From contig DYGY01000007.1 in NCBI GenBank assembly GCA_020724425.1, positions 1 through 64,000 of the forward strand: 64,000 nucleotides of DNA, written 5' to 3'. The first letter of the stretch is position 1. Each line of letters starts with the position of its first letter. The notes below the pieces were generated by a model. It was not told the DNA's origin, ran no database searches, and was given only the letters and a program-made list of their open reading frames with translations. Shown here piece by piece: positions 13,199 to 36,193 of the stretch. This DNA comes from Thermaerobacter marianensis. GTDB taxonomy: Bacteria; Bacillota; Sulfobacillia; DVGY01. The position numbers and the translations under genes were made by a program.

Positions 13199-13210
13199 TT
13201 ACATACCTCC

Positions 13211-14494: not shown

Positions 14495-14543
14495 TGAGGT
14501 ATTCCTCCTACATTAAAGTAACCAGATATTAATACCTACTAGT

Positions 14544-14572: not shown

Positions 14573-14574
14573 TG

Positions 14575-14612
14575 AAAAAAGGAAAGAGAATCGGGGCAAA
14601 ACCCGATCCTCT
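14575..14612 (-). terminator. Terminator after the opine-dehydrogenase-family gene
   Basis: An 11-bp stem (14585-14595 with 14602-14612, one wobble) followed on the minus strand by a T-rich run. It separates the opine gene from the aminotransferase transcript. Confidence 0.8.
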
Positions 14613-14636
14613 TGATAAGCCTTAGCCCACTTACCC

Positions 14637-15839
14637 CTATTTGTAGCTGGCAAGTTTAAACCTTCCATCTGTCACATACTGAATCAAATTTTCGGGTGTA
14701 TATCCTTGTAACCCAAGCTTTTCTAAAGTCCTACCACTCATACCATAGTCAATATCATTGATTGCAGATGCCAGAGCAATCATACTGTTAATTGCAGGGG
14801 TAGCTACCCCTGTTAATTCACCAAGAGCCTTGAGTGGTGTAAGACTCATTGGCACATCCTCAAACACATATCTTGTATCTAGTGTGGTCGGAGCTTTAAG
14901 ACCTTCATAAGCGGTATTGTTCTGAATCGCTGTATAAAGATCACTACCTTCAGCTCCATAAGCTTCAGCTAACCAGTCTTTTGCACTGATAGCTTCAACT
15001 CCTAAGGCCCTAGCAATACTCAACCGTTCCTCATCCATGGCCTCTAAAATCCTTGCTACAGCCGGACTTATACCTTCATGATAGTAGTCAAAGGATTCAC
15101 CAGCTTCAATCCTTGCTGCATTAAGAATAGTTGGTGCGGGATGAAAAATAGCCCCAATATTGTCCAAGCTGGTCTCAAGAACATGAGCTGCTGACTTAAA
15201 CTGGGGGAAAGCATGATTTAACATTCTAACAACTTCATTGGTGCGGTAGGCAGGTAAAGCAGCCACCTTCACTTCATTCTTAATACGGTAAATATGCGCT
15301 ACTCTCTCAGCACTATCATCTTTGGATAGTGCTCTGCTAGCATACACAAGAGATTGAGCTTCAGCTATCACCACATCTTCCCAGTTACCCTGACTTCTTA
15401 AGATATACTCAAACTCCAGTGCTCCTCCGGTACGTCCTGGATTCAACACCACAATCTGATCCTTCTTAAGATAGGGGGCTAGGCGATAAGCTAAAGGTCT
15501 ATGGGCAGTGGCTGGCACAACAATCATAATTACATCTGCATCCAAAACAGCCTCTGCCATATTGTCTGTTGCCAGATCTATTCTGGCAAACCCTTCAACC
15601 TGACCACTAAGCTCAATACCACCAGCAGCAGTTATACGTTCAACCTTTTTCTTGTCGGTGCTCAACAGTCTAACAGGGAAGCCTAGCAAACCAAGATGAG
15701 CTGCCATTGCCAGACCACCATTACCAGCACCAACCACCGCGAATTTAGGGTACGACCGTACCCCCACAGAGACCAAATTACCACCAGACGGTCTCAGGTT
15801 GGCAAGAATCTCTCTTCGCTTATCCCACATAATACTCAC
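14637..15839 (-). CDS. NAD/NADP octopine/nopaline dehydrogenase family protein
   Basis: A 400-residue two-domain dehydrogenase. The N-terminal Rossmann domain has VVGAGNGGLAMAAHL, and the C-terminal part fits the octopine-dehydrogenase helical domain. Opine dehydrogenases join or split an amino acid and a 2-oxo acid through an N-(carboxyalkyl) bond; distant relatives have other substrates. I place the start at GTG 15839, seven bases after GGGAGGT; the longer TTG start at 15845 is too close to that site. The protein keeps an unusual polar N-terminal extension before the Rossmann strand. The gene lies behind a c-di-AMP riboswitch and its terminator, so expression should fall when c-di-AMP is high. 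Confidence 0.82.
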   Translation of the reverse strand: MSIMWDKRREILANLRPSGGNLVSVGVRSYPKFAVVGAGNGGLAMAAHLGLLGFPVRLLSTDKKKVERITAAGGIELSGQVEGFARIDLATDNMAEAVLDADVIMIVVPATAHRPLAYRLAPYLKKDQIVVLNPGRTGGALEFEYILRSQGNWEDVVIAEAQSLVYASRALSKDDSAERVAHIYRIKNEVKVAALPAYRTNEVVRMLNHAFPQFKSAAHVLETSLDNIGAIFHPAPTILNAARIEAGESFDYYHEGISPAVARILEAMDEERLSIARALGVEAISAKDWLAEAYGAEGSDLYTAIQNNTAYEGLKAPTTLDTRYVFEDVPMSLTPLKALGELTGVATPAINSMIALASAINDIDYGMSGRTLEKLGLQGYTPENLIQYVTDGRFKLASYK

Positions 15840-15883
15840 AGCCAAAACCTCCCTTTGAGAAAGTATTGGCGGTGGGGAGGGAC

Positions 15884-15914
15884 AAAAAACACCCTAGGGA
15901 ATACCCTGGGTGTT
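15884..15914 (-). terminator. Riboswitch expression-platform terminator
   Basis: Minus strand: AACACCC-AGGG pairs with CCCT-A-GGGTGTT, followed by TTTTT. It lies between the c-di-AMP aptamer and the opine-dehydrogenase gene. A small hairpin (TTGAGC/GCTCAA, 15913-15928) overlaps its 5' edge and could compete with it. Confidence 0.85.
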
Positions 15915-15949
15915 GAGCATTAGCTCAAGACACAGCCAACTCCCCTTTC

Positions 15950-16075
15950 AACGCTTACGAGGTTAGCTGACGGACTAGGATCGAAAGAGTATAACCCCTC
16001 CCATACTCCACATCGGAAGCATGAGATTCGCCCCTTAGATTGGGTCCCCCGCTCTTCATACGAAGACTAAGCGCT
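15950..16075 (-). ncRNA. c-di-AMP riboswitch (ydaO/yuaA leader)
   Basis: On the minus strand this region contains the most conserved elements of the ydaO/yuaA class: GCGGGGGACCCA followed by GGGGCGAAUC, and near the 3' end GUCAGCUAACCUCGUAAGCG. P1 forms between 16068-16075 and 15950-15957 (AGCGCUUA with UAAGCGUU, 8 pairs). A terminator follows 36 nt downstream, the usual arrangement for an OFF switch in which ligand favours termination. Known members mostly control potassium or osmolyte transport and cell-wall hydrolases; here the downstream gene is an opine-dehydrogenase-family enzyme. Confidence 0.93.
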
Positions 16076-16104
16076 CACGTGGCCTAACCGCTACGGCCAA
16101 TTCA

Positions 16105-16134
16105 ATTGTCTGCAAGACCTGAGATTGTTGTCAA
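16105..16134 (-). promoter_or_regulatory. Promoter of the riboswitch transcript
   Basis: Minus strand: TTGACA (16134-16129), 18-bp spacer, GACAAT (16110-16105), about 30 nt upstream of aptamer stem P1. Confidence 0.5.
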
Positions 16135-16207
16135 TACTGTGGAAATATGGTAACATAACGCCAGCTGTCTTGTCAATTACTCTTTTTGCTTAGAAACCAA
16201 TGACAAA

Positions 16208-16560
16208 ATGAAAGCATATACTGATTATCTATACATCTAATACACCAAAAAGAAGCGAACACCTAAAAGACATTGTCAAAGCGAGATCACCGAAGACTTT
16301 ACCCTAACATCTACTATGCACATGACTGCCGCCATCTTTGCTAACGATGAAAAAACGGGCTTAATCAGGATCTAGACCACCTGTTAGAACAATTAGCACC
16401 TCAAGGGGCAAACTATGCTCACCATCAAACAGGGGAGGATAACAGCGAAGCACTCAAGAGTATTATAGTCAGCCACGAGATAATTGTTCCAATCATAAAA
16501 GGAAAACTTGATTTAGGTACCTAGCAGCAAATATTCTATGCTGGGGGAACAGGGGAGACC
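16208..16560 (+). pseudogene. Decayed YjbQ / UPF0047 family gene
   Basis: No intact frame exists, but conceptual translation follows the YjbQ family (secondary thiamine-phosphate synthase activity) along its length. The frame opens at ATG 16208 with MKAYTDYLYI, hits TAA, then reads YTKKKRTPKRH and later TSTMHMTAAIFANDEKTGL. A frameshift near 16360 leads to LDHLLEQLAPQGANYAHHQT, GEDNSEALKS and GKLDLGT. Next comes TAG (16522-16524) exactly where the family has Trp of the GxWQ motif, then QQIFYA. The C-terminus is missing and runs into the P5C dehydrogenase terminator hairpin. At least two stops and one frameshift make it non-functional. Confidence 0.88.
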
Positions 16561-16576
16561 CCGGCTAACCGGGGTC
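16557..16576 (-). terminator. Hairpin after the P5C dehydrogenase gene
   Basis: GACCCCGG / CCGGGGTC with a 4-nt loop, 7 nt beyond the stop codon of the minus-strand gene. There is no clear T tract, so termination efficiency is uncertain. Confidence 0.5.
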
Positions 16577-16582
16577 CCATAC

Positions 16583-18133
16583 TTACATTCTTTCAGATAC
16601 CAGTTTTGGCTGGGTAAAGAGGAGGAGATATTCAGGTCCACCTGCTTTAGAATCAGTACCTGACATATTGAAACCACCAAAGGGATGTACTCCAACTAAA
16701 GCACCTGTTGATTTCCTGTTAAAATACAGATTACCCACATGGAATTCGCTTCTAGCCTTTTCTAGCTTCTCACGATTCCTAGAATATACTGAACCAGTTA
16801 AGCCATAAATGCTGTTATTTGCAATCCTAATGGCATCATCATAGTCTTCTGCCTTAAACAAGGCTAGTACTGGACCAAAGATTTCTTCCTGAGCAATCCT
16901 AGAATCCTCAGCAACCCCTTCAACGACAGTAGGTTCAAGGAAATATCCCTTGCTGCCTTCAACCCTTTTTCCACCAACAAGAACAGTACCTTCACTCTTG
17001 GCAGTATCCATATATCCAAGAATGGTGTTCATGGCAGATTCATCAACCACAGGTCCCATATAGTTTTCTAAGTTGTCAGGCTGACCAATCCTAATCTCTT
17101 TAACCTTAGCGATGACTTTCTCTTTGACTTCATCATAGACATCTCTATGGATGATAGCTCTTGAACAGGCAGAACACTTCTGTCCTTGGAATCCAAAAGC
17201 AGAAGTAACAATACCTTCAACAGCTGCATCAATATCAGCCTCATTATCAACAACAATAGCGTCTTTACCACCCATCTCAGCAATAACCCTCTTAATCCAA
17301 ATCTGACCTTCTCTTGGCTTAGCAGCCAACTCATTGATTCTTAGACCAACCTCCATAGAACCGGTAAAGGCAACAAATCTGGTCTTAGGATGTTCAACAA
17401 GGTAATCACCAATAACACCACCACTGCCAGGTAGGAAGTTAATAACCCCTGCAGGTAAGCCTGCTTCTTCCATAATCTCCATGAACTTGGCAGCAATAAC
17501 GGTTGTTGTACTTGCAGGTTTCAAAATGACTGTATTACCAGCAACAACAGCTGCACTAGTCATACCAGCCAAAATCGCCAATGGGAAGTTCCACGGGGGA
17601 ATAACTATACCTACACCAAGAGGAATATAATACTGCTCATTATCTTCTCCGGGAATACGATAGAGGTTAGTAGGTCTATCAAGCTTAAGCATCTCTCTAC
17701 CATAATACTCTAGGAAGTCGATAGCTTCAGCTGTATCGGCATCTGCTTCAATCCATGTCTTACCTGCTTCATAAACCATCCAGGAGTTTAACTCAAAGCG
17801 ACGTCTTTTCATAATGCTTGCAGCCCTAAAAAGGATCCTCGCTCTTGCTTCTGCACTAACATTCTTCCAGCTCTCAAAGGTACTCAAAGCTACCTGCATA
17901 GCTTTTTCAGCTTCTTCCCGACCGGCCTTACCTGTATATCCAACTACTTCATCAGGGTTAGAAGGGTTATAGGATTCAATCTTCTTTTCGGTATAAATAC
18001 GTTCACCACCAATTATGAGTGGATACTCCTTACCAAACTCTGACCGTACTTTCTTTAGTGCTTCTTCCATCCTCTGCCTGTTAACCGGAATACCAAAATC
18101 GGTAATCTGCTCAACACGGTACTCTGTAAGCAT
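16583..18133 (-). CDS. rocA: L-glutamate gamma-semialdehyde (P5C) dehydrogenase
   Basis: A 516-residue NAD-dependent aldehyde dehydrogenase of the RocA/PruA2 type that oxidises glutamate semialdehyde (in equilibrium with P5C) to glutamate. Visible motifs are PPWNFPLAI, the catalytic glutamate in [12 protein letters not shown], the nucleophile cysteine in [25 protein letters not shown] and the C-terminal [12 protein letters not shown]. Start placed at ATG 18133, seven bases after AGGAGGT; the longer frame from 18229 has no such site. A 19-bp dyad (18157-18175) just upstream is a good operator candidate. Context with an aminotransferase suggests amino-acid or diamine breakdown to glutamate. Confidence 0.95.
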
Positions 18134-18156
18134 ATTGATACCTCCTGTAATTATTT

Positions 18157-18175
18157 TGTGGCAACAGTTACCACA
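18157..18175. promoter_or_regulatory. 19-bp dyad, candidate operator for rocA
   Basis: TGTGG-C-AAC-A-GTT-A-CCACA is symmetric except for one base pair. It is centred about 33 nt before the rocA start codon. A TATAAT-like hexamer lies upstream at 18241-18236 on the minus strand, so the dyad would be downstream of the transcription start. The cognate regulator is unknown. Confidence 0.5.
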
Positions 18176-18265
18176 CTTTTCCCAGAATACTATTTCAGGA
18201 CAAAATGCAAAACTCCTGTCTACCTCCACAAATATATTATAGCTTACAGGTACCCTTAAATATCC

Positions 18266-18731
18266 TCATTTAATCACACCACAAGCTAATCTTCTACCCG
18301 AATCACCTCCAGGCTGAGTCCTATAGTCATCTGGATTTTCATGAATAATGATTGAGCGACCAACCACATCTCTAACCGCAAATCTATTTGTAAAGACACA
18401 CATTCTCGCTTTGCCATTGTTGGAAAAGAGAACAGGTAGATCACCCGCATGATTCCCATGGGGTTGATTATCCGGATTCCAATGCCCACCTGCAGCTAAA
18501 AAGGGATCCTCAGGATTTCCAACCGTGCAATCTCCAAACTCATGAATATGGAAACCATGAGGCCCAATGGGGGGGGTCCCCAGGTACATAATCTGGTAAA
18601 CCAGAAACCTCTACAGAAATCCAGGTACCCCCATAAACTTCTCGAAAACGAACCACCCCAGTAATATCAGGAGCCAAAGGACCTCCTTTAATCCTAGCCA
18701 TTGCCGTAGTCCTATTAGCAAACATCTTCAT
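18266..18731 (-). pseudogene. sodC: Cu/Zn superoxide dismutase family gene with a one-base frameshift
   Basis: Two overlapping frames together encode one Cu/Zn-SOD-family protein. The first begins MKMFANRTTAMARIKGG (ATG 18731 after GAAAGGGG) and reads through VEVSGLPDYVPG. The second continues PPIGPHGFHIHEFGDCT, then GGHWNPDNQPHGNHAGD, and ends GGDSGRRLACGVIK. The metal-ligand histidines and aspartate are in the second frame. The break is at a run of eight C (18569-18576, plus-strand G); removing one base restores an open frame of about 154 residues. There is no signal peptide. It could be a real null allele, a phase-variable tract or a sequencing error. Confidence 0.85.
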
Positions 18732-18843
18732 ACCCCTTTCTAGAGTATAGATATGTTTTTCTCCTGCTAATGGTCCCCTGATAGGAAGAAGGTAATTTGT
18801 GTAGAAGTATCTAGTTGATGGATATTGAAAGGAGCTAAAATCT

Positions 18844-19587
18844 TTGGCACACTTCAATTCTGTAACAGAATATACCCAATTAAATGATGATTTTCCGACT
18901 GCTGTTTTTGAACAGCTTCTCAAAAAGTCCTTTCTGAAACACACTCACACCGGTATAGATCTAAGCAGTGGAATAGGAATGGCCAGTCGCTTCCTAGCTG
19001 CTAAAGGAGTAGCCATTATGGGTATTGAACCCTCAAGTACACTTAGAGCCCAAGCCCGAAAACTTGATGCTATGGCAGGTCTGAGAATCAGGTATTTAGC
19101 CACTAGTCCAGAAGACACAACCCTCAAAAATGCAAATCTTGATTTTGCCCTAGCAGCTAAAAGTTATCACTCTTTTAACAGATCTCTAGTTATCCCGGAA
19201 GTAAAGAGGATTCTCAAACCTTATGGACACTTCATCGTCATAGACTCAGACCTCATTAAAAGCTCTCTAGTTACTGCCACACTTGAACTAATCAGACAGT
19301 ATAGCCCCCATATAAAACTTGCAGACAGTGACGCCAATGAAAGCCTTTATGGTTTTCCCACCGAATGGTTTGGCGAATGGAACACACATAATCTATATAT
19401 GGCAGATCACTGGCAATGCAAATATACCGTTAGTTTCTCCCATCAAGGCTGGCGGGAAAAGATCAAAACCCTCTTTAACCATGAAGAAGTAGATAGGGAC
19501 CTAGCAAAGATTCTTAAACAATCCTATCCCCAACAACCCCTAATAGTGCCATATGTCTGTTCCATTGTTGTCCTTCAAAATATATAA
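18844..19587 (+). CDS. Class I SAM-dependent methyltransferase
   Basis: A 247-residue class I methyltransferase. Motif I is GIDLSSGIGMASRFLAAKG and an acidic residue follows in MGIEPSS; the fold continues with LDFALAAKSYHSF and a post-motif ILKPYGHFIVID. Start taken as TTG 18844, ten bases after GGAG; no ATG or GTG fits the ribosome site. The acceptor substrate is unknown. It is the first gene of a plus-strand run with a glycosyltransferase and a second methyltransferase and is divergent from sodC. Confidence 0.82.
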   Translation: MAHFNSVTEYTQLNDDFPTAVFEQLLKKSFLKHTHTGIDLSSGIGMASRFLAAKGVAIMGIEPSSTLRAQARKLDAMAGLRIRYLATSPEDTTLKNANLDFALAAKSYHSFNRSLVIPEVKRILKPYGHFIVIDSDLIKSSLVTATLELIRQYSPHIKLADSDANESLYGFPTEWFGEWNTHNLYMADHWQCKYTVSFSHQGWREKIKTLFNHEEVDRDLAKILKQSYPQQPLIVPYVCSIVVLQNI

Positions 19588-19591
19588 TCCA

Positions 19592-19621
19592 TTGAGAATT
19601 ACCCTGCCTTTCCGGTACAAT
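19592..19621 (+). promoter_or_regulatory. Promoter of the MGT glycosyltransferase
   Basis: TTGAGA (19592-19597), 18-bp spacer, TACAAT (19616-19621), 24 nt upstream of the start codon. Confidence 0.5.
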
Positions 19622-19645
19622 AGGGATGGTAAAGGGGGGAGCTCA

Positions 19646-20839
19646 ATGAGAAGCATCTTTTTCAGTACACCTGCTCATGGCCATATCAATCCAACACTAC
19701 CCATAGTCAGAGAACTTATCTCCCAGGGAGAAGAAGTGATATACTACTCAACCATAGAGTTTAAGGGAAAGATAGAAGCTACCGGTGCCAATTTTAAGGA
19801 CTACAACCTTGATATCTCCGGACTTGATCCAGAGGAGTTAACTGATTATGCAATCCTGTATCGCACTCTCATGGAAGCAAGTATTGCCTTAATAGATCAA
19901 CTCCTTCCTGAAATGAAAGAATTGAATCCTGATTATATCGTTCATGATTCTCTTAGTCCCTGGGGTAAATACATAGCAAAAATACTCGATATTCCTGCCA
20001 TATCATCAATAAGTACCTTTGCTTTAACAAGGCCTGTTATTTTTCAGGCTGAAGAGTTTCGCCCAAGTATCCCTAAGCTAATCTTTGAAGATGCTAGGCA
20101 TCTCCTTAAGGGCATGGCAGTTCAATATCACCTAGGCAAACATTATGGTACTGGGCCCTTAGACTTTTTTGATAGCTTTACAAACCGAGAAAAACTCAAT
20201 ATCGTTTATACCTCCCTAGAATTGCAACCATATGCTGAACTCTTTGACGATAGTTTTACTTTTGTAGGACCCTCCATATCAATGGAACAACAGGAACTAG
20301 ATTTCTCAATAGACACAGAAAGACCAGTTATCTATATATCCCTAGGTACCCTGCTAAACGAGAATATCCCTTTCTATCACACCTGTTTTACTGCCTTTAG
20401 GCATATGGATGTACTAGTAATTCTCTCAATAGGGGAGAAGATAGATATAAGGGAACTTGGTGAAATTCCAGCTAACTTCATAGTTAGGAATAAGGTTCCT
20501 CAAGTAGAAGTCTTAAAGTATGCAGACCTTTTCATCACTCATGGGGGGATGAACAGTGTTCATGAAGGACTCTACTTTGCTGTGCCACTCATTGTCATTC
20601 CTTTAACCAATGAACAGAGACTTGTAGCTAGACAGGTTGTCGATAATAGGGTTGGTATAGAGCTTACAGAAGTCTCTCCCGAGCTTTTAAAAGAGACCTC
20701 TAATACGGTTTTAGAAAGCCCTACATACTCATACCATGCCTTTAAGATGAGTAACGCTCTAAAAGATGCTGGTGGCTACAAAAGAGCCATACAGGCAATA
20801 CAGGCTTTCAAGGATAGATTTCTAAAGGAGGGTATCTAA
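19646..20839 (+). CDS. Macrolide-type (MGT family) UDP-glycosyltransferase
   Basis: A 397-residue GT1-fold glycosyltransferase. The N-terminus has the acceptor-domain pattern FFSTPAHGHINPTLPIVREL, and the C-terminal nucleotide-sugar site has ISLGTLLN and THGGMNSVHEGLYFAVP. The MGT family transfers sugars to small lipophilic acceptors such as macrolides and glycolipids. ATG at 19646 follows AAAGGGGGGAG; the longer frame from 19553 overlaps the upstream gene and lacks a site. It is followed immediately by a methyltransferase gene. The acceptor is unknown. Confidence 0.88.
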   Translation: MRSIFFSTPAHGHINPTLPIVRELISQGEEVIYYSTIEFKGKIEATGANFKDYNLDISGLDPEELTDYAILYRTLMEASIALIDQLLPEMKELNPDYIVHDSLSPWGKYIAKILDIPAISSISTFALTRPVIFQAEEFRPSIPKLIFEDARHLLKGMAVQYHLGKHYGTGPLDFFDSFTNREKLNIVYTSLELQPYAELFDDSFTFVGPSISMEQQELDFSIDTERPVIYISLGTLLNENIPFYHTCFTAFRHMDVLVILSIGEKIDIRELGEIPANFIVRNKVPQVEVLKYADLFITHGGMNSVHEGLYFAVPLIVIPLTNEQRLVARQVVDNRVGIELTEVSPELLKETSNTVLESPTYSYHAFKMSNALKDAGGYKRAIQAIQAFKDRFLKEGI

Positions 20840-21547
20840 GTGAGGATGTATTCAGATTTGGCCTGGATCTGGCCAATTATTAGCCCCCCGGAAGACTATA
20901 TTGAAGAAGCTTTAGAGTTCACAAGAATCATCAAGAACAACAGAGCCACAATGCTCCATCTTGGTTGTGGGGGAGGACATCTAGATAGAACCCTAAAAGA
21001 CCACTTCAAGATTACCGGGGTTGATCTTAGCCCCACCATGTTAGAACTAGCAGAGAAACTTAACCCAGAATGCAACTATCAAATAGGTGATATGCGTAAT
21101 GTTAAGCTTAAGGAAACCTTTGATAGTGTCCTCATTGCTGACTCTATCAGCTATATGCTAACGGAAAAAGACCTACAAAAAGCCTTCCAGACAGCATATG
21201 ACCATCTAGAGCCAGGAGGTCTTTTCATCACCTATGCTGAAGCCACTAAAGAAACCTTTGCAAACAACAAGGTCAGTCACAGCACTCATCAGCAGGACTC
21301 TCTAGACATACTGTTTATCGAAAATCTCTATGATTGTAACCCCCAAGACACTGTCTATGAAGCAGTATTTATGTTCCTAATCAGGCAGGAGGGGAAAATC
21401 CTTGCCCTTGAAACTGACAAACACACTCTAGGTATCTTCCCCCTAAGAACATGGAAGGAGACTCTAGAGAAAGTCGGTTTTGAAGCAATTGAAACAAAGA
21501 ACTCTATCTGTAACATCCCACTCTTTGTCGCAAAAAAGACATTTTAG
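20840..21547 (+). CDS. Class I SAM-dependent methyltransferase
   Basis: A 235-residue methyltransferase with motif I MLHLGCGGGHLDRTL, acidic loop GVDLSPTMLELA, motif II region FDSVLIADSISYM and LEPGGLFITY. GTG at 20840 comes right after the glycosyltransferase stop with AGGAGG at 20827-20832; ATG at 20846 is a second option. It closes a three-gene tailoring-like set and is followed by a strong terminator. Confidence 0.85.
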   Translation: MRMYSDLAWIWPIISPPEDYIEEALEFTRIIKNNRATMLHLGCGGGHLDRTLKDHFKITGVDLSPTMLELAEKLNPECNYQIGDMRNVKLKETFDSVLIADSISYMLTEKDLQKAFQTAYDHLEPGGLFITYAEATKETFANNKVSHSTHQQDSLDILFIENLYDCNPQDTVYEAVFMFLIRQEGKILALETDKHTLGIFPLRTWKETLEKVGFEAIETKNSICNIPLFVAKKTF

Positions 21548-23025: not shown

Positions 23026-25584
23026 GTGTCTGAATACACACCACTAATGCAGCAATTCCTTGAACTGAAAAAACAGCATCCAGATAAGATCCTCTTTTTC
23101 CGCTTAGGAGATTTCTATGAGATGTTCTTTGATGATGCTAAGCTATCAAGCAGAGAACTAGAAATTACCCTGACTTCTAGAGATGGTGGTAATGGTCAGC
23201 GAGTAGATATGTGTGGTGTACCTCACCATTCTGCTCGCACATATATCCTTAGGCTCATTGAAAAAGGATACAAAATAGCTATCGCTGAACAGGTTGAAGA
23301 CCCAAAACAAGCAAAGGGTCTTGTTAAGAGAGAAGTCGTAAAAATCATCACCCCAGGAACCATAACTGACCCAGACTTCATTAAACCGGAGCAGAATAAC
23401 TTCCTTGTAGCTATAAGTACCCGTGATGAAAGATACGGTCTAGCAGCAATTGATGCTCTAACAGGGGATTTCATTGTCACAGAACTAAACTCCTTAACAG
23501 AAACCCTTGATGAAATTACAAGGCTTGGTGCAAAAGAGATAGTCATTCCCGATGATCTCACCCTAAATGCCCCTAAAGAGATTCTCTTAACTAGGCATAA
23601 TAAGAGGTTCTTTCGTTTGGATTTGGCAGAAGAGATCCTTTTAAGACATTTTAAGGTGAAATCTCTAAAGGGTTTTGGTTGTGATAACCTTCTTTTGGCC
23701 AAGAGTGCTGCCGGAGGACTCCTTAACTATCTAGAAAATGCCCAGAAGTCAGACCTAAACCATGTAACAGGCTTAAGAACATACCAGCTTGAAAAACAAA
23801 TGCTAATTGACTCTACCGCTAGAAGAAATCTGGAAATATCAGCCCGTTTGCAAGATGGATCTAAAGAAGGTACACTCCTATCAATACTTGATAGTACAGA
23901 AACAGCCATGGGTAGCAGGCTATTAAAACGCTGGTTGGAACAACCCCTAATGGATATTAGCGAAATAGAGGAACGTCAGGAGGCCATTGAAGAACTAACC
24001 CATGATAGTCTTCTTAGAGCCAACCTGACCGATAAGCTAAAGGATATCTATGATTTAGAACGCCTCTCAGGTAAGCTAGCATACTCTTCAGCTAATGCTA
24101 GAGATCTCTTGGCCCTAGCTCAATCCCTGAGTGTACTGCCTGACATTAAGAATCTCCTTTCAGGTAGAAAATCTCTTAGTCTAGAGATTCAACCCCTACC
24201 TGAATTAGTCTCCTTAATTAGGAGTGCCTTTGTCATGGATCCCCCTCTGACGGTAACCGAGGGGGGCATAATTAGACAAGGATACAATGCTGAGGTTGAT
24301 GAACTACGGTCAATGACCCATAATGTTCAACAGTGGTTAGCTCAACTAGAAGCCAATGAAAGAAACAAGACAGGAATTAAGAACCTGAAAATCGGTTTTA
24401 ACAGGTTATTTGGGTACTACATAGAGATAACCAAAAGCAATCTCAAAAGTGTACCTGAAGAATACATTCGTAAACAGACCCTTGTGGGTTCAGAACGCTT
24501 CATCACCCCAGAGCTAAAAGAACAAGAAGAAAAAATTCTTCATGCAGAAGAGAAACTTAAGGCCATAGAACACTCCTTGTTTGAAGAAATTAGAGATAAG
24601 GCGAAAGAAGAGATTGAAAAAATCCAGACCACTGCTCAAAGCATTGCCAAACTAGATGTGTATCTTTCCTTAGCTAAGATAGCTTTAAAGAATGACTATG
24701 TAAGACCTAAGGTAGATGACGGTGATACCATTTACATCGAAGCTGGTAAACATCCAGTGTTAGATGTAACTCTAGGCAGCAGCTTTATACCCAATGATAC
24801 TATCTTAGATCAAACTGGCCAGCGCCTGCTTCTGATTACCGGACCCAATATGGCAGGGAAGAGTACCTATATGAGACAGGTAGCCCTAATCACCATAATG
24901 GCCCAAATAGGGTCATTTGTTCCTGCAAAAAAGGCACAAATCGGTTTAGTAGATCGTATCTTTACTAGGATAGGGGCAGCAGATGATCTGGCTAGCGGTC
25001 AGAGTACCTTCATGGTTGAGATGACAGAGGTAGCTAACATACTTCATAACGCTACACCAAAGAGCCTTGTTCTTCTAGACGAAGTAGGTCGAGGTACAAA
25101 CACCTTTGATGGCATTAGTATAGCCTGGGCAGTAGTCGAATACCTTCACAACCATAAGAGACTAGGTTGCAAGACACTCTTTGCCACCCACTACCATGAG
25201 CTAACACAACTAGAGGAACAGCTTGCCGGAGTCAAAAACTACTCTGTCAAGGTTGATGATGACGGAAACCGGGTAGTCTTTCTTCACAAAATCGAGAGGG
25301 GATTTTCAAACCGTTCCTACGGTATTCATGTGGCTAAACTCGCCGGTATTCCTGAGAGCCTTAACAAAAGAGCAAGAGAAATCTTAGCCACGTTGGAAGA
25401 TAACACTTCCCTAAAGCAACTAAGTTTCTTTTCTACAGAAGTTGCTGTAGCTGAAGAAGTAGAGGATTACGGCATCTTAGAAGAAATAGAAGAAATTGAC
25501 ATCAACGAATTAACACCACTTGAAGCCCTGTTTCAGATTTCTAACTGGCAGAAACGAATGCGTAATGGGGGTGAGAACCATTAA
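23026..25584 (+). CDS. mutS: DNA mismatch repair protein MutS
   Basis: An 852-residue mismatch-recognition ATPase. The N-terminal mismatch-binding motif FFRLGDFYEMF (Phe-x-Glu type, Y-E context), the Walker A GPNMAGKSTYMRQ (about 606-618), DEVGRGTNTFDG and THYHELT are all present. GTG start preceded by AGGAGGT. The reading frame overlaps mutL by about 20 nt. Length fits the family. Confidence 0.98.
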   Translation: MSEYTPLMQQFLELKKQHPDKILFFRLGDFYEMFFDDAKLSSRELEITLTSRDGGNGQRVDMCGVPHHSARTYILRLIEKGYKIAIAEQVEDPKQAKGLVKREVVKIITPGTITDPDFIKPEQNNFLVAISTRDERYGLAAIDALTGDFIVTELNSLTETLDEITRLGAKEIVIPDDLTLNAPKEILLTRHNKRFFRLDLAEEILLRHFKVKSLKGFGCDNLLLAKSAAGGLLNYLENAQKSDLNHVTGLRTYQLEKQMLIDSTARRNLEISARLQDGSKEGTLLSILDSTETAMGSRLLKRWLEQPLMDISEIEERQEAIEELTHDSLLRANLTDKLKDIYDLERLSGKLAYSSANARDLLALAQSLSVLPDIKNLLSGRKSLSLEIQPLPELVSLIRSAFVMDPPLTVTEGGIIRQGYNAEVDELRSMTHNVQQWLAQLEANERNKTGIKNLKIGFNRLFGYYIEITKSNLKSVPEEYIRKQTLVGSERFITPELKEQEEKILHAEEKLKAIEHSLFEEIRDKAKEEIEKIQTTAQSIAKLDVYLSLAKIALKNDYVRPKVDDGDTIYIEAGKHPVLDVTLGSSFIPNDTILDQTGQRLLLITGPNMAGKSTYMRQVALITIMAQIGSFVPAKKAQIGLVDRIFTRIGAADDLASGQSTFMVEMTEVANILHNATPKSLVLLDEVGRGTNTFDGISIAWAVVEYLHNHKRLGCKTLFATHYHELTQLEEQLAGVKNYSVKVDDDGNRVVFLHKIERGFSNRSYGIHVAKLAGIPESLNKRAREILATLEDNTSLKQLSFFSTEVAVAEEVEDYGILEEIEEIDINELTPLEALFQISNWQKRMRNGGENH

Positions 25585-27244
25585 GATTCATCATTTAGAT
25601 GAAAAAACCGTAATGCAAATAGCTGCAGGAGAAGTAATTGAGAGGCCTGCTTCCGTTATCAAAGAACTCATCGAAAACTCTATCGATGCTAGTAGTACCC
25701 GTATTGACATTCGCGTCGTTGATGGTGGTAAAAAAGAGATCTCTGTAATTGATAATGGGGAGGGCATGGTAAAAGAAGACTTGCAACTGGCTTTTAAAAG
25801 ACATGCCACAAGCAAAATTCAAACCATCCAGGACCTTGATATCCTCCATACCTTAGGATTTAGAGGGGAAGCTTTACCCAGCATAGCCTCTGTTTCAAGA
25901 GTAGAGGTTACAACAAGAACTCAAGAGGAAACTACAGGTACCCATGGCATCTGGGAAGAAGGAAAACTCCTTGATCTCTACCCAACTGCCTTTTCCCAAG
26001 GAACAAAAATTCAGGTAAAGGATCTCTTTTTCAATCTACCTGCTAGAAAGAAGCATTTAAAAGCCACCTCTACAGAGTTCCAGAAGATTAGTGCCCTGAT
26101 ATATTCCTTTGCTCTGGCATATCCTCATATAGCCTTTAGCTTATACCATAATGATAAACTCTCTTTAGAAACCCATGGTACTAGTCTAGAAGATGTTCTT
26201 GTCAATCTCTTTGGCAACAGTACCGTTGAGAAACTCATACCTGTAAATGGAGAGCTTGATGGTATCAATCTCCATGGTTATATAGGTAAACCTGAGCTTT
26301 CCCGAAATACCCGCAATAACCAGTATCTCTTTGTAAATGGCAGACAGATTTATGTGGGTATGCTTTCAGAGATTATCAAGAATGCCTATAAGAATCTCTT
26401 GATGGTACATCAACACCCAATGCTAATTCTTTATCTAGAGGTGCCAGCACACCTAGTTGATGTTAATGTTCATCCTAGCAAGATGCAAGTTAGATTTGCC
26501 CAGTTTGATAGAATAGCCGCCATCCTTGATCGCAGTATCAGAGATGCCTTAGGAAGTAGTCCTCTGATTCCTAAAGTCAATCTACAGGAACCAAAGCAAT
26601 TCCAACAGGACTATCTACCCTTAAGAGAACAACCCAAATCATACTCACTAGATATAAAGGAGAGCTCTCTACCTCCACTTATTCCTTTAGGACAGATAGG
26701 CAATACCTATATAGTCTGTAAAGGTCAGGAAGGGCTCTACCTGATAGATCAACATGCGGCACATGAACGGATATATTTTGACCAGCTCCTTGAAAATAAC
26801 CGAGTGCTAGCTACTCAGCACTTAGCTGTACCTATCGTAGTCGAACTAACCCCTTCTGAATACACTCTCTTTGAAGAGTTCAAAGAGACCATTAACGACA
26901 TGGGATTTAATGCTGAAGAGTTTGGCTCTAACTCAGTAATCATAAGAGAAGTACCTATCCTTTTTAAGAACGAAGCCAACGAACCAGTATTCCTTGATTT
27001 GCTCCAGCGATTAACAAGTCTAAATACCAGCAAAACAATTACCGAAGGGGATATACCTCTTTATGCCATGGCCGCCTGTAAAGCAGCAATCAAAGCAAAT
27101 GACCGGCTACATACACTAGAAATTGAGGCTCTGTTAGACCAGTTAGGTAACACCCCCAATCCCTATACCTGTCCCCATGGTAGACCAACCATTGTCCAAC
27201 TCACTCTTGAAGAACTAGCTAGACTATTTAAGAGAACAGGCTAG
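25565..27244 (+). CDS. mutL: DNA mismatch repair protein MutL (endonuclease type)
   Basis: A GHKL ATPase of about 559 residues with AAGEVIERPASVIKELIENS, DNGEGM and RGEALPSI. The C-terminal half has the endonuclease motif DQHAAHERI (about 394-402), with ACKAAIKAND and CPHGRPT also conserved, so this is the nicking MutL of species lacking MutH. The start is uncertain. ATG 25565 lies inside mutS and has no good ribosome site. The family usually starts at the IKIHHL segment, where the codon is ATT (25580), overlapping the mutS stop and preceded by GGGGTGAG. I report the first ATG. Confidence 0.95.
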   Translation: MGVRTIKIHHLDEKTVMQIAAGEVIERPASVIKELIENSIDASSTRIDIRVVDGGKKEISVIDNGEGMVKEDLQLAFKRHATSKIQTIQDLDILHTLGFRGEALPSIASVSRVEVTTRTQEETTGTHGIWEEGKLLDLYPTAFSQGTKIQVKDLFFNLPARKKHLKATSTEFQKISALIYSFALAYPHIAFSLYHNDKLSLETHGTSLEDVLVNLFGNSTVEKLIPVNGELDGINLHGYIGKPELSRNTRNNQYLFVNGRQIYVGMLSEIIKNAYKNLLMVHQHPMLILYLEVPAHLVDVNVHPSKMQVRFAQFDRIAAILDRSIRDALGSSPLIPKVNLQEPKQFQQDYLPLREQPKSYSLDIKESSLPPLIPLGQIGNTYIVCKGQEGLYLIDQHAAHERIYFDQLLENNRVLATQHLAVPIVVELTPSEYTLFEEFKETINDMGFNAEEFGSNSVIIREVPILFKNEANEPVFLDLLQRLTSLNTSKTITEGDIPLYAMAACKAAIKANDRLHTLEIEALLDQLGNTPNPYTCPHGRPTIVQLTLEELARLFKRTG

Positions 27245-28270: not shown

Positions 28271-28528
28271 GTGGGAAAACAGACAGTCAATCTACAGGAT
28301 AGTTTCTTAAACCAGGTACGTAAAGAGAACATACCCGTGATAATTTATCTGGTAAACGGCGTTCAGTTAAGAGGTATTGTCAAAGGATTTGATAACTTCA
28401 CAATCGTTTTAGAGTATGAAGGACGCCAATCCATGGTATATAAACACGCTGTCTCAACGATTGCTCCCGGTAGCACTGGTTTCTCGTTTCACTTCTCTGA
28501 AGGCAAGTCAGACGAGTCATCTCGCTGA
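28271..28528 (+). CDS. hfq: RNA chaperone Hfq
   Basis: An 85-residue Sm-like RNA-binding protein. The Sm1 motif is [16 protein letters not shown]...[10 protein letters not shown] and the Sm2 motif is [10 protein letters not shown] (YKHA). GTG start at 28271 with GGGAGGG upstream. The order miaA-hfq is conserved in Bacillota. The C-terminal tail is short, as usual for Gram-positive Hfq. Confidence 0.96.
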
Positions 28529-30132: not shown

Positions 30133-31032
30133 ATGACTCGTATAAACATCAAAGGCAAACAAGTGGCAAGTGTACAAGAAAACTCTATCGAACATACAAC
30201 CGAAAACCAACAAGCAAGAGAACTTCTATCCGCACTAGACAAAATGATAGGGTTACAGAAAGTCAAAAACCTTGTCAAAGAGATCTATGCTTTTATCGAA
30301 ATTCAACAGCGAAGAGAAAAAGAGAACCTCCTAACAGAACCAACGGTACTGCATATGATCTTCAAGGGTAATCCGGGAACAGGGAAGACAACAGTAGCTC
30401 GTTTCCTAGGTAGTCTCTTTTTTCAAATGGGAATCCTAAAGAAGGGCCATATCGTAGAAGTGGAAAGAGCAGACCTTGTGGGTGAATACATTGGCCATAC
30501 GGCCTTAAAAACACGGGAAAAAATAACTAGTGCTCTAGATGGTATTCTCTTTATCGATGAAGCATACTCCCTTGCTAGAGGTGGAGAAAAAGACTTTGGT
30601 AAGGAAGCAATCGATACCCTAGTAAAAGCCATGGAAGATAACAGAGGAAACCTGATTGTAATCCTTGCCGGTTATGAAAGAGAGATGGAAACCTTTCTGC
30701 GGGCAAACCCAGGATTAAGGTCAAGATTCCCTATTCACCTAACTTACCCTGACTACTCCATCACAGAACTATTAAGTATTGCTGAATCCATGCTAGCAGA
30801 AAGAGAATATCGAATGACTCTAGTAGCCAAAAACCGCTTAAGAAACGTTCTCTTAAGTGCACAACAAAACTCAATAACAAGTGAAGGTAATGCCAGAATG
30901 GTACGTAACTATATCGAAAAAGCCATTCGGACACAAGCGTTACGACTGGTCAAAACCTCACAGTACTCTAGAGAGGATCTCATAACCATTAACGAACAAG
31001 ATATTGCTCTCCTAGAATCAGACCACCCTTAA
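30133..31032 (+). CDS. spoVK: Stage V sporulation protein K (CbbX-type AAA ATPase)
   Basis: A 299-residue AAA+ ATPase. Walker A is GNPGTGKTTVA (about 76-86), Walker B GILFIDEAYSL, followed by the sensor region VILAGYEREM and NPGLRSRFP arginine finger. The position between hfq and hflX is the B. subtilis spoVK position. It is needed for late sporulation; its substrate is unknown. The start ATG follows a GGGGG site. Confidence 0.93.
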   Translation: MTRINIKGKQVASVQENSIEHTTENQQARELLSALDKMIGLQKVKNLVKEIYAFIEIQQRREKENLLTEPTVLHMIFKGNPGTGKTTVARFLGSLFFQMGILKKGHIVEVERADLVGEYIGHTALKTREKITSALDGILFIDEAYSLARGGEKDFGKEAIDTLVKAMEDNRGNLIVILAGYEREMETFLRANPGLRSRFPIHLTYPDYSITELLSIAESMLAEREYRMTLVAKNRLRNVLLSAQQNSITSEGNARMVRNYIEKAIRTQALRLVKTSQYSREDLITINEQDIALLESDHP

Positions 31033-31059: not shown

Positions 31060-32361
31060 GTGATCTGCATAGTTATTGAAACTGCTCTTCCAGAAGATAG
31101 AGTACTCCTAGTGGTAGTTGAAACTGACCAGCAATGGAGCATGAAAGACATAGGGCGTGAACTATCTGAATTAGCGCAGACTGCCGGAGCTAATGTTGTA
31201 GGTATAATTGAACAGCAAAGGGATAAGCCTCATCCTGCATTCTTTGTTGGTACTGGCAAGCTAGAGGAAATAAGGAAAGATATTAGTTTTTATGACGCAA
31301 ACCTAGTTGTGTTTTCAGGGTCTCTTAGTCCTGCCCAGCAACGCAATTTGGAAAGAGAACTAGATGTCCGGGTAATAGATAGAACCCAGCTCATCCTGGA
31401 TATTTTTGCTCAAAGAGCTAGAACTAGAGAAGGTAAGCTGCAGGTAGAGCTTGCCCAGCTAACCTACCTCTTACCACGCCTTACCGGAAAAGGACAGGCT
31501 TTATCTAGACTCGGTGGTGGAATTGGTACTAGAGGCCCAGGTGAAACAAAACTAGAGGCCGATCGAAGACGAATTAGAAAAAGAATCGCTGATCTCAAAA
31601 ATGATATAGAAGAAGTAAAGAAAACTAGAAGGATTCAAAGAAGTGGACAAAAACATAATCTACCCTTAATAGCCCTAGTAGGGTATACCAATGCCGGTAA
31701 ATCTACGTTATTGCAAACACTGATGCACATGACCCAACCAGATAAACAAGAACAGGTCTATATAGCCAATCAGCTTTTCGCTACTCTTGATCCCCTAATG
31801 AGACTAATATCCATTAAAGGTCATGATAGCTTCCTCATCACCGATACAGTAGGGTTTATCCGTGATCTACCACCAACCCTGATTGCCGCTTTCAAGGCTA
31901 CCCTTGAAGTTATTCAGGAAGCTGACATCCTCCTACACGTAGTAGATGGTTCAGAGGAGAACCTAGATTTACATCTAGCAGCCACCAGAGAGGTCTTAGA
32001 AGATCTTAAGGTTATTAATAAACCAACCATAACTGTTCTTAATAAAGCTGATCTTGGCAGTATGCCTAGTTCTAGGGGAATAGAAAACCCCGTTCAGATA
32101 TCAGCATTGAACCAAACCGGCATCCACCAACTACTGACAATGATTGATACCTTGCTTCTAGAAAGCAAAGAAAAAGGAACCTGGTTAATACCCTATCAAG
32201 AAATGCAGTTAGTGGATCTTCTTCACCAACATGGCCAAGTTATAAACTCAGAATATACCCCAGAAGGAATACTCATCAAAGGAGAGATAGAGAAAAGAAA
32301 AAGCAAAAACTTGCACCAATATACCATACTAGAACATATTAATAGGGAAGAGAGACACTAG
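31060..32361 (+). CDS. hflX: Ribosome-associated GTPase HflX
   Basis: A GTPase of about 433 residues that splits stalled 70S/100S ribosomes. The HflX N-terminal domain has FVGTGKLEEI and GIGTRGPGETKLE. The G domain has GYTNAGKSTLL (about 207-217), DTVGFIRDLP and NKAD. The start is unclear: GTG 31060 lies one base after AAGGAG, unusually close, and no other standard start codon fits. With the promoter starting near 31051 the mRNA would have a very short leader. HflX follows spoVK, as in B. subtilis. Confidence 0.94.
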   Translation: MICIVIETALPEDRVLLVVVETDQQWSMKDIGRELSELAQTAGANVVGIIEQQRDKPHPAFFVGTGKLEEIRKDISFYDANLVVFSGSLSPAQQRNLERELDVRVIDRTQLILDIFAQRARTREGKLQVELAQLTYLLPRLTGKGQALSRLGGGIGTRGPGETKLEADRRRIRKRIADLKNDIEEVKKTRRIQRSGQKHNLPLIALVGYTNAGKSTLLQTLMHMTQPDKQEQVYIANQLFATLDPLMRLISIKGHDSFLITDTVGFIRDLPPTLIAAFKATLEVIQEADILLHVVDGSEENLDLHLAATREVLEDLKVINKPTITVLNKADLGSMPSSRGIENPVQISALNQTGIHQLLTMIDTLLLESKEKGTWLIPYQEMQLVDLLHQHGQVINSEYTPEGILIKGEIEKRKSKNLHQYTILEHINREERH

Positions 32362-32861: not shown

Positions 32862-33230
32862 ATGAATCAACCTGATAAAGGCTTGTATTCTATTAGTAAG
32901 GTTTCGGAATTAACAGGCTTAACTCCTAGACAAATCAGGTATTACGAGGACAAAGGTTTAATCAGTCCTAGAAGAACAGAAGGTAAACAGAGAGTATATG
33001 GAAAAAAGGAAGTCTCTGTCCTAAAGGAGATTAACAATCTAGTAAAACAAGGAATGCCTCTGAGCAGTATCGTTGAACTCATAAACACAGAAGAAACAAA
33101 GACTTCAGCTGAAATACTAAAGGGCAATACCCTTGCAACACAGATAACATCCCTGTATCCCTTGAACAACAGACAAGAAGTAGAGAGGATAGTCTCTAGA
33201 TTAAGAGCAGTCAAAAGAAAAAAGGAGTGA
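32862..33230 (+). CDS. glnR: MerR-family regulator GlnR
   Basis: A 122-residue MerR-type regulator: [25 protein letters not shown] near the N-terminus, RVYGKKEV wing, then a short C-terminal tail. GlnR represses glnA and other nitrogen genes when glutamine synthetase is feedback-inhibited. It ends four nt before glnA. The C-terminus, which in B. subtilis senses glutamine synthetase, is present but cannot be aligned by eye. Confidence 0.9.
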
Positions 33231-33234
33231 TTTC

Positions 33235-34566
33235 ATGCCTACATACTCCCATCAAGACATTGAAAGATTAGTCAAAGAACATAACATCCGCTTTATTCGT
33301 CTTCAATTTTCAGATATTCTTGGAGTAATAAAGAACGTAGCTATTCCTGTAGAACAGCTCTCTAAAGCATTAGCAGGCGAGCTTATGTTTGATGGCTCCT
33401 CAATTGAAGGTTTTGTCCGTATCGAAGAATCAGACATGCGTTTAATGCCTGACCCCAATTCCTTTACCATTTTTCCCTGGACTCCCAAAGAAGCTGGAAC
33501 CGCTAGGCTTATCTGTGATGTCTTAAAACCTAATGGAGATCCTTTCCTAGGAGACCCAAGATCAACCCTTAAGAAAGTATTAGCAGAAGCAGCGGAACTT
33601 GGTTACGAACTCAATGTTGGTCCAGAACCAGAATTTTTTCTTTTTCAACAGGACAAGGATGGCAAACCAACAACCAACCCGCTAGATCAGGCCAGTTACT
33701 TCGATCTAGGTCCTATTGACAAAGGAGAAATTGCTAGAAGAGACATGGTTCTAACCCTTCAGGAAATGGGCTTTGAAATTGAAGCGGCCCATCATGAGGT
33801 AGCTCCATCACAACATGAAATAGATTTCAAGTATGCTGATGCAATCACCACCGCTGATAATATAGCAACTTTTCGCTTTGTAGTTAGAACCATTGCAATG
33901 CACCATGGTCTCCATGCTACATTTATGCCTAAACCTGTCTATGGCATTAATGGCTCTGGTATGCACCTGCATCAATCACTATTCAAAGGACAAGAAAATG
34001 CTTTCTATGACCCTAACAGTCCTAACGAATTAAGTGCTGTAGCCTTACAATACCTTGCCGGCATCCTTACCCATGCCCGCGGCTTTACTGCCATAACTAA
34101 TCCCTTGATAAACTCATACAAGCGTTTAGTTCCTGGTTATGAGGCCCCAGTCTATGTTGCCTGGTCTGAAGGGAATCGCAGTCCACTAGTACGCATACCT
34201 GCCCGTAGAGGTATAGGTACAAGAATAGAGATACGTAGTCCCGATCCTTCTTGTAATCCCTATTTAGCCCTAGCAGTAACATTGAAAGCAGGTCTTGATG
34301 GCATCAAGAATGAGCTAACACCACCACCCGCTATTCAAAGAAACGTATATGATATGTCATTGCTAGAAAGGGAAGAGGAAGGCATTGATAGCCTGCCCGG
34401 AAGCCTAGAAGAAGCCCTATTTGAACTACAGAAGGATAAGATCATTCAGGAAGCCCTAGGAGAACACATCTATACAAACTTCCTAGCTGCCAAACAAATC
34501 GAGTGGGATGTCTATCGTCAACAAGTACATCAATGGGAAACAGATCAATACCTAAATACATTCTAA
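33235..34566 (+). CDS. glnA: Glutamine synthetase type I (GSI-alpha)
   Basis: A 443-residue ATP-dependent glutamate-ammonia ligase. Signatures: [26 protein letters not shown], the ATP-loop [10 protein letters not shown], and [16 protein letters not shown]. The adenylylation-site insert of GSI-beta is absent, consistent with the feedback-inhibited Bacillus type that signals through GlnR. It is co-transcribed with glnR. Confidence 0.97.
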
Positions 34567-34590: not shown

Positions 34591-35202
34591 TCAGAACTTT
34601 CTTACCAAACCTGTTACCTTACCTAATATCTCCACCGAATCTACGATTATTGGCTCCATAAATTGATTTTCAGGTTGCAACCTAAAATATCCCTGTTCCT
34701 TATAAAACCGTTTAACTGTAGCTTCATCCTCTACCAAAGCCACTACAACATCACCATTATCAGCTGTAGCCTGCTGCCTTACGATAACATAATCTCCATC
34801 AAAGATACCCGCTTCAATCATACTATCACCTTTTATCCTTAACATAAAAACCTGATCCTCATGGGTAAAATCTCGAGGCAGGGGAAAGGTGTACTCCACA
34901 TTCTCTATTGCCAGTATAGGTTCTCCAGCAGTCACCGTACCAACAACTGGTACAAAAGATACCATTTGATTATCAAAAGCCGACTCCTGATGCCTAAGCT
35001 CAAGAGCCCTTGGCTTACTAGGGTCCCTCTTGATATATCCCTTCTTTTCTAAGCGATACAGATGCCCATGAACAGTAGAGCTTGATCTTAACCCCAAAGC
35101 CTGGCCAATCTCTCTAACAGAGGGTGGATAACCTTTCTTTCTCTGATGCTCCAAAACATACTCCAAAACTTCCTGTTGTCTCTTAGTCAAATCATCATAC
35201 AT
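34591..35202 (-). CDS. lexA: SOS repressor LexA
   Basis: A 203-residue SOS repressor. The N-terminal winged HTH has [25 protein letters not shown]. The self-cleavage site is A92-G93 (VTAGEP), the nucleophile S127 (KGDSM) and the general base K164 (ATVKRF). Start at ATG 35202, with only a weak site (GAGG) four bases upstream. A leader of about 100 nt is predicted from the promoter at 35312-35340. It is divergent from yneA across SOS boxes, as in B. subtilis. Confidence 0.97.
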
Positions 35203-35311: not shown

Positions 35312-35340
35312 ATTATATCATGTTGCATTCAAAAACGCAA
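35312..35340 (-). promoter_or_regulatory. lexA promoter
   Basis: Minus strand: TTGCGT (35340-35335), 17-bp spacer, TATAAT (35317-35312). The -35 overlaps the LexA box at 35338-35351. Confidence 0.65.
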
Positions 35341-35351
35341 ACGATTGTTCG
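35338..35351. promoter_or_regulatory. LexA (DinR) box 1
   Basis: Minus strand CGAAC-AATC-GTTTG, one mismatch to CGAAC-N4-GTTCG. It overlaps the -35 of lexA, giving autoregulation. Confidence 0.75.
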
Positions 35352-35358
35352 AAAAACC

Positions 35359-35387
35359 TTGACATCCGAACCTAGGTGCGCTATTCT
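35359..35387 (+). promoter_or_regulatory. yneA promoter
   Basis: TTGACA (35359-35364), 17-bp spacer, TATTCT (35382-35387). LexA box 2 fills the spacer and box 3 lies just downstream of the start point. Confidence 0.75.
35367..35380. promoter_or_regulatory. LexA (DinR) box 2
   Basis: CGAAC-CTAG-GTGCG, one mismatch to the consensus, between the -35 and -10 of yneA. Confidence 0.75.
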
Positions 35388-35400
35388 ATAGATAGCTAAT

Positions 35401-35414
35401 CGAACACTAGTTCT
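35401..35414. promoter_or_regulatory. LexA (DinR) box 3
   Basis: CGAAC-ACTA-GTTCT, one mismatch to the consensus, in the yneA leader. Confidence 0.8.
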
Positions 35415-35711: not shown

Positions 35712-35739
35712 ACTTCGCATAAGTTATATTATGTTAACT
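35712..35739 (+). other. dif: Chromosome dimer resolution site (dif)
   Basis: A 28-bp sequence with the layout 11-6-11: XerC-type arm ACTTCGCATAA (35712-35722), central GTTATA (35723-35728), XerD-type arm TTATGTTAACT (35729-35739). It starts and ends like the B. subtilis dif as I remember it (ACTT...TTATG...ACT), and CGCATAA plus TTATGTTAA are shared with E. coli dif. It is intergenic, and the prevailing coding strand switches within about 5 kb. XerC/XerD would act here to resolve dimeric chromosomes at the terminus. Confidence 0.85.
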
Positions 35740-35756
35740 TAAATGTTTTACAAATA

Positions 35757-35779
35757 AGCCCTGGATTGACCAGGGCTTT
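35757..35779. terminator. Bidirectional terminator between yneA/dif and the next minus-strand gene
   Basis: AGCCCTGG / CCAGGGCT stem (35757-35775) with T-rich sequence on both sides. Confidence 0.75.
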
Positions 35780-35782: not shown

Positions 35783-36064
35783 CTATGAAGCATATTTTTC
35801 ATTGGTTAAGAGCTTTTCTAACTTGCTTATTATCTGTTGTGTATTCTCATTACCCGTATAAATCAGTGGTTCTGCCGGAAATCGGTCAATAAATTCACGT
35901 ACTCGTTCAATATCTTCAAGTGCTTTTTTGAGATGATACCATGCCTGTGTAACACTGTCATCTTCAAGCGAAATTGATAAGAGCAATTCTTTCACTGCTT
36001 GTAGTTCAACCTCTACCTCTTCAAGATCTTCTCTTATAAAGCCAGCAGATAGAAAATGAGCCAT
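35783..36064 (-). CDS. Hypothetical acidic helical protein
   Basis: A 93-residue acidic protein that is almost entirely predicted helix (REDLEEVEVELQAVKELLLSI ... HLKKALEDIERVREF). I do not recognise a family. ATG 36064 lies about eight bases after GGGGGTG; the GTG at 36076 is inside that site. Its stop is next to the bidirectional terminator. Confidence 0.65.
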   Translation of the reverse strand: MAHFLSAGFIREDLEEVEVELQAVKELLLSISLEDDSVTQAWYHLKKALEDIERVREFIDRFPAEPLIYTGNENTQQIISKLEKLLTNEKYAS

Positions 36065-36193
36065 TTCCGGATACACCCCCTTAGTTAGAGTGTAATCATT
36101 TCTACCTAAACTGTCAAATCTGGCATTTTTTCGACAAAAGTGTTAACCAATGAATATGCTAGAGTACAGGTTGTAATTTGGGAGGTCGAGTTA

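Follow-up and report, generated by a model that had tools for sequence, protein, structure and literature searches.

Recombination at dif is well established: XerC and XerD bring the sites into synapsis, FtsK activates the complex and one crossover takes place. dif and the lexA-yneA gene pair are, each separately, textbook knowledge, and the dif site of E. coli, unlike the site described here, is not known to have lexA or an SOS division inhibitor adjoining it. For streptococci and lactococci, the Xer review PMC5357621 describes a dif-type site next to which one gene is conserved, as is found here. The site of this difSL/XerS system has 31 bp and the recombinase gene as neighbour, whereas the site in the 64-kb stretch of DNA analysed here (the window) has 28 bp and an SOS locus next to it; lexA, SOS and yneA gave no match in the main text of this review. 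Passages of PMC6851548 describe pairs of lexA and a divergently oriented gene for an SOS division inhibitor (among them yneA and sosA), which is also the arrangement in the window, with a LysM-domain product and with LexA boxes between the genes. In the same passages no mention of dif beside the lexA-inhibitor pair was found. In PMC3025954, which prints the dif sequences of B. subtilis and E. coli, LexA appears once, for comparing conservation. The literature considered consisted of open-licence papers (subscription journals and preprints were outside its scope), in which no report of lexA or yneA adjoining dif was apparent, so that the novelty of the lexA-dif linkage is provisional.

The site in the window is the plus-strand 28-mer ACTTCGCATAAGTTATATTATGTTAACT. 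It has 28 bp like the dif site of B. subtilis and the 11-6-11 layout of the E. coli site, and it is identical to each of them in 22/28 positions, with 10/11 in the XerD arm (references as printed in PMC3025954). It occurs once in the window, with 0 copies expected from 100 shuffles, and it is the single match at ≤3 mismatches in the genome (2.08 Mb in 45 contigs, with a completeness of 92%), in which the reversed pattern used as control gave 0 matches. These identities and the uniqueness confirm the 11-6-11 dif site claimed in the preliminary description; the findings named there as speaking against it, a better dif elsewhere or extra copies, were both absent at ≤3 mismatches from the 92%-complete genome. 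The XerC and XerD arms are named after their presumed counterparts in the sites of E. coli and B. subtilis. A dif profile of 100 distinct dif sites, taken from the pattern matches of this analysis, assigns 34.0 bits to the 28-mer and 4.1 bits to the runner-up position in the window; high scores of the source sites themselves are expected, because the profile was built from them. Beyond the 28 bp, sequence conservation is restricted to a weak preference for A/T at the few positions directly adjoining the site. The 28-mer is almost certainly the dif site resolving joined sister chromosomes of this bacterium.

The same genome encodes a XerD-type recombinase (TIGR02225, 397 bits, over the cut-off), a XerC-type recombinase (TIGR02224, 339.5 bits, barely above the cut-off of 335.15) and an FtsK with gamma domain (PF09397, 98.6 bits). 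The recombinase genes are located on contigs other than that of dif, and a third integrase is more distant than the XerC and XerD types. The XerS model reaches about 125 bits in the XerD- and XerC-type genes compared to its cut-off of 267. If the E. coli and B. subtilis systems are taken as models, the left arm of the 28-mer would be bound by XerC and the right arm by XerD. At division, the septal translocase FtsK would pair both dif copies of a dimeric chromosome and activate XerD, and one crossover at the paired copies would then restore two monomers.

lexA (-) and yneA (+) are divergent, and dif follows the yneA stop codon after 22 bp and is separated from lexA by 510 bp (Table 1). The preliminary description had placed it 23 bp after yneA; the adjacency holds, the exact distance does not. 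This differs from the B. subtilis type: in genome G277, whose site is identical to the B. subtilis type, 22 kb separate dif from lexA, which is upstream and oriented as in the window. Judged from its sequence, the 86-aa product is YneA, as indicated by the NCBIfam equivalog match, the LysM domain, the hydrophobic N-terminus of the translation, the divergent lexA and the LexA boxes. The latter were scanned for with the LexA-box motif CGAAC-N4-GTTCG. The terminator-like hairpin on the yneA stop codon has 7 bp, and its T-run extends up to dif. The location of dif in a transcription-free pocket was considered as a general rule and rejected: terminators are present on both sides here, and other regions are mixed. 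With a simple finder, 61 dif regions (see below) gave terminators in the expected direction in 8 cases upstream and 9 downstream, and in the wrong direction in 6 and 4 cases, and therefore no general claim of such a pocket is made.

Table 1. Features of the terminus gene block and the dif site (positions in the window).
Feature	Position	Strand	Basis and remarks
mutS	23026-25584	+	conserved left block; recognised from translation
mutL	25520-27244	+	conserved left block; recognised from translation
miaA	27256-28206	+	conserved left block; recognised from translation
hfq	28271-28528	+	conserved left block; recognised from translation
SpoVK-like AAA ATPase	30133-31032	+	family search
hflX	31060-32361	+	family search
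MerR/GlnR-like regulator	32862-33230	+	family search
glnA	33235-34566	+	recognised from translation
lexA, SOS repressor	34591-35202	-	NCBIfam TIGR00498 251 bits; Pfam LexA_DNA_bind and Peptidase_S24
Three LexA-box-like sites, lexA-yneA gap	35338-35414		starts 35338, 35367, 35401; each 1/10 mismatch
Promoter-like site toward yneA	35359-35387	+	overlaps middle LexA box; consensus match only
yneA, LysM-domain SOS cell-division suppressor, 86 aa	35429-35689	+	NCBIfam NF010723 63.5 bits (cut-off 60); Pfam LysM 38.3 bits
Intrinsic-terminator-like hairpin on yneA stop codon	35677-35695	+	-12.8 kcal/mol, z -2.8
dif site	35712-35739	+	XerC arm 35712-35722, centre 35723-35728, XerD arm 35729-35739
Hairpin ending convergent minus gene, directed at dif	35756-35778	-	-16.9 kcal/mol, z -3.7
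97-aa ORF convergent with yneA, adjoins dif	35783-36076	-	no family above cut-off

The preliminary description had further claimed that two replichores meet at dif, with mostly plus genes to the left of it and mostly minus genes to the right of about 40.5 kb. Both statements agree with the non-overlapping, retained ORFs, of which 27/33 are on the plus strand left of dif and 23/29 on the minus strand right of it; the switch is not sharp, with plus genes persisting at 36.1-40.5 kb. The junction is also supported by the GGGNAGGG motifs, as 7/7 in the window are directed at dif (4 on the plus strand to the left, 3 on the minus strand to the right). The GC skew of the window amounts to -0.019 on the left side of dif and to -0.169 on the right side, without a clean extremum exactly at dif because it already falls from about 10 kb on. 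Among the homologous dif regions, those with enough flank have a higher GC skew upstream than downstream of dif in 56/57 cases, and the mean plus-coding fraction drops from 0.79 to 0.26 across dif (61-region set, 57 with enough flank). The dif pattern therefore finds dif sites of the replication terminus. The SRS octamer GAGAAGGG, considered as a polarity signal, has a weak polarity (upstream of dif the two strands carry 22 and 8 copies, downstream of it 13 and 18). Polarity is stronger for G-rich octamers such as GGGGAGGG, with 97 pointing to dif and 16 in the opposite direction.

To relate both loci across the Bacillota, a relaxed dif pattern and the LexA positions were compared genome by genome. 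The pattern matched 91/154 genomes of the class, with the reversed control in 1, and 211/348 genomes of the phylum sample, with reversed controls in about 18. Within the class, 50 dif-lexA pairs are on one contig, 33 of them ≤5 kb apart (17 families) and 47 ≤25 kb (22 families); 40 more dif sites are on a contig other than that of lexA and 4 are without a LexA match. Among the matches listed for the phylum sample there are 51 same-contig pairs, of which 32 are ≤5 kb (20 families) and 41 ≤25 kb apart (25 families), 9 dif sites on other contigs and 81 without a listed lexA. A near-finished set of 38 genomes of ≤3 contigs was chosen against contig-length bias, and 33/38 were counted (the five with a best dif <25 bits were excluded; G196, which has a dif match, is not included). 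In 11 of these 33 genomes lexA is ≤1 kb from dif, and the count rises to 21 for ≤5 kb, to 24 for ≤10 kb and to 26 for ≤30 kb, compared to 0.02, 0.11, 0.22 and 0.66 expected from random placement, an expectation that ignores relatedness, so that the figures give an effect size and not a test over independent events. In 25/26 near-finished genomes with lexA ≤30 kb, lexA is on the XerC-arm side and on the opposite strand. Unlinked cases of this set have lexA-dif distances of 722 kb (G132) and 1.14 Mb (G116).

Moreover, 61 dif-centred regions including the window were compiled with one genome per family, preferring a dif site well inside the contig, with some regions cut by contig ends; the choice of the genome within a family was not blind, as the lexA distances in the class and the phylum sample were already known. 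The profile places lexA ≤10 kb from dif in 41 of these regions, in 40/41 of them upstream and on the minus strand. yneA adjoins lexA in 25/41. The yneA stop codon precedes dif by 22-354 bp in 17 regions, the window having the smallest gap, and over all regions the spacing ranges from 22 bp to 8.6 kb. In other genomes, for example Thermovorax subterraneus and Fervidicola ferrireducens, dif is located 168-171 bp upstream of lexA. The conservation that the preliminary description had raised as an "if" is thus real at the level of families. Its SOS division-inhibitor locus beside dif stands as well, with the amendment that the conserved partner is lexA and the block behind it, more than yneA. A different arrangement occurs in family f5: in G092 (L149), yneA and lexA are not divergent upstream of dif but follow each other downstream of it, both on the plus strand, and in G004 and G084 lexA is likewise downstream of dif on the same strand.

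For the gene content of the 61 regions, all ORFs were clustered without annotation and the named families were then recounted by separate profiles. LexA tops the families near dif with 36 regions by clustering and 41 by profile, a frequency that no second gene family reaches in the 61 regions. It is followed in the profile counts by YneA (27), YnbB (26), MiaA (23), the SpoVK-like ATPase (23), Hfq (22), MutL (20), HflX (14) and MutS (12); the names YnbB, MiaA, Hfq, MutL, MutS and HflX are our assignments from recognised sequence motifs. The homologues of mutS, mutL, miaA and hfq form a cluster that recurs near dif in other families. The genes of the block are nearly all upstream of dif, with lexA on the minus strand in 40/41 regions and the others mostly on the plus strand, and no mainly-downstream gene family was found in >10/61 regions. 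Other block genes are present in 32/41 lexA-linked compared to 1/20 unlinked regions. From these upstream frequencies and orientations it follows that dif closes a long-lived block of the left arm, of which lexA-yneA are the last genes.

Viewed from lexA, the block behind this gene persists in loci that lack a visible dif. A recognisable dif is present ≤10 kb from lexA in only 6/37 LexA clusters, and 8/80 lexA-centred loci have a site >35 bits, which is upstream of lexA and on the opposite strand in 8/8. A dif of the searched pattern is absent genome-wide from 9/18 genomes behind the lexA-centred loci, so that in these lineages the dif sequence may have diverged. Genomes without the searched pattern include Anoxynatronum, Tissierella, Soehngenia, Peptoniphilus and Blautia (behind L078, L085, L103, L109, L133 and L139), which are candidates for a diverged dif or another resolution system. 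As 37/58 inner branches of the LexA tree are open, the tree cannot date the linkage. On this poorly resolved tree the unlinked cases are scattered (13 changes vs a shuffled mean of 17.1), a distribution compatible with, but no proof of, a linked ancestor and repeated loss.

In most sampled families with a recognisable dif of this type the gene order is retained, small insertions aside. The best explanation, to which we assign a probability of about three in four, is that the 28-mer is a chromosomal dif closing an inherited terminus block that was kept in place by counter-selection of rearrangements. An ancestral terminus block mutS-mutL-miaA-hfq-hflX-lexA-yneA-dif would have been located in the left replichore, ending with lexA (-) and yneA (+); the order observed today was probably present early in the Bacillota. 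We see an even chance that its retention was mainly due to the need of dif to stay at the switch of strand polarity and of translocase-guiding motifs. If dif must stay there, inversions and relocations beside it would be counter-selected, and the nearest genes would thereby stay as well. According to PMC5993296, inversions close to the terminus are less frequent and shorter than elsewhere, and counter-selection of such inversions is documented in many groups, among them the Firmicutes, which fits the skew switch in 56/57 regions. Against this explanation stand the lack of a sharp GC-skew extremum at dif in the window, the low share of LexA clusters with a recognisable dif ≤10 kb away (6/37) and the existence of unlinked families, some with lexA >700 kb from dif. 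Moreover, the conservation is one-sided, which would not be expected from a symmetric polarity constraint. This confinement to the lexA side argues for another reading, in which specific selection holds the SOS checkpoint (lexA, yneA) at dif; we consider it unlikely, at clearly lower odds than the inherited block. lexA-yneA would, tentatively, be replicated last and share the midcell position of the terminus toward the end of the cycle, and membrane-targeted YneA would accordingly be made beside the septum that endangers unresolved or broken termini; the suggestion that the YneA dose follows the completion of replication is similarly doubtful. It would fit such selection that lexA is the commonest gene near dif (41/61 families) and yneA the closest on median, that order and orientation are nearly invariant (25/26) and that families without detected yneA still have lexA and dif no more than about 100-270 bp apart. 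Yet the block behind lexA survives at lexA-centred loci without visible dif, and in the window a terminator-like hairpin ends yneA before dif. The spacing between yneA and dif varies from 22 bp to 8.6 kb, and yneA is found beside lexA in 25/41 linked vs 6/15 unlinked families (p = 0.23; 15/20 unlinked families were compared, the five without a located lexA being left out). Coupling of YneA to dif as the cause of the linkage was rejected on these grounds: direct coupling is not supported, because the presence of yneA does not track the linkage, the spacing varies, a terminator-like hairpin follows yneA and dif keeps its place next to lexA in families where yneA goes undetected. That lexA(-yneA)-dif forms a functional unit of ancestral origin in Bacillota chromosomes, with selection keeping the SOS repressor and the division inhibitor at the dimer-resolution site, is a speculative proposal to which we give limited credence, and it is no more probable that replication times the checkpoint and that it is made at the place and moment at which the terminus faces the closing septum.

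A regulatory contact has far less to recommend it. In families f73, f60 and f148, for which the YneA profile is negative in the sampled region, dif is upstream of lexA and in some genomes near a LexA box, at 4-165 bp in f73 (5 genomes; L161, L205-L208) and at about 24 bp in f148 (1 genome; L219), so that LexA and Xer proteins could meet there. It is very improbable that LexA bound close to dif directly tunes Xer recombination, or that Xer/FtsK traffic tunes the expression of lexA/yneA, since the nearest LexA box in the window is about 300 bp from dif with yneA in between, most families have it further away, and only 4/61 regions have a LexA-box-like match in the interval that extends from 300 bp before dif to 100 bp after it, one of them on the downstream side. 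Some relatives have at least two dif-like sites (e.g., G008, G135, G186), as would be expected if the 28-mer were part of an Xer-using mobile element and did not serve chromosomal dimer resolution; with a single copy in the 92%-complete genome, core genes on its left and the same place in many families, this is hardly credible. The inherited, terminus-anchored gene order accounts for much of the linkage pattern. The recurrence of dif beside lexA/yneA in many Bacillota families may reflect selection on how the terminus is built, and a direct functional link of YneA or LexA with dif is possible and not needed.

Outside operons, it is unusual for bacterial gene order that a non-coding 28-bp site keeps one and the same regulatory gene as its neighbour in the majority of the families sampled from a phylum. 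For many fragmentary Bacillota genomes, lexA is thereby a practical pointer to dif and the replication terminus. Whether the terminus-placed SOS checkpoint is functional or a by-product of a constraint on chromosome polarity is a question that is now testable in B. subtilis.

Two good dif-like sites per genome were seen in G008, G101, G135, G154, G186 and G224, for which Xer-using mobile elements or contamination of draft assemblies are candidate explanations. In the window, a stretch at 12268-18944, which has its genes on the minus strand and a negative GC skew inside the otherwise plus left arm, appears to be a local inversion or insertion and contains a putrescine/ornithine-type aminotransferase gene. 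Directly before miaB, at 19553-21547, a macrolide-family (MGT) glycosyltransferase gene and a methyltransferase-like gene form a pair that is atypical among the surrounding core genes.
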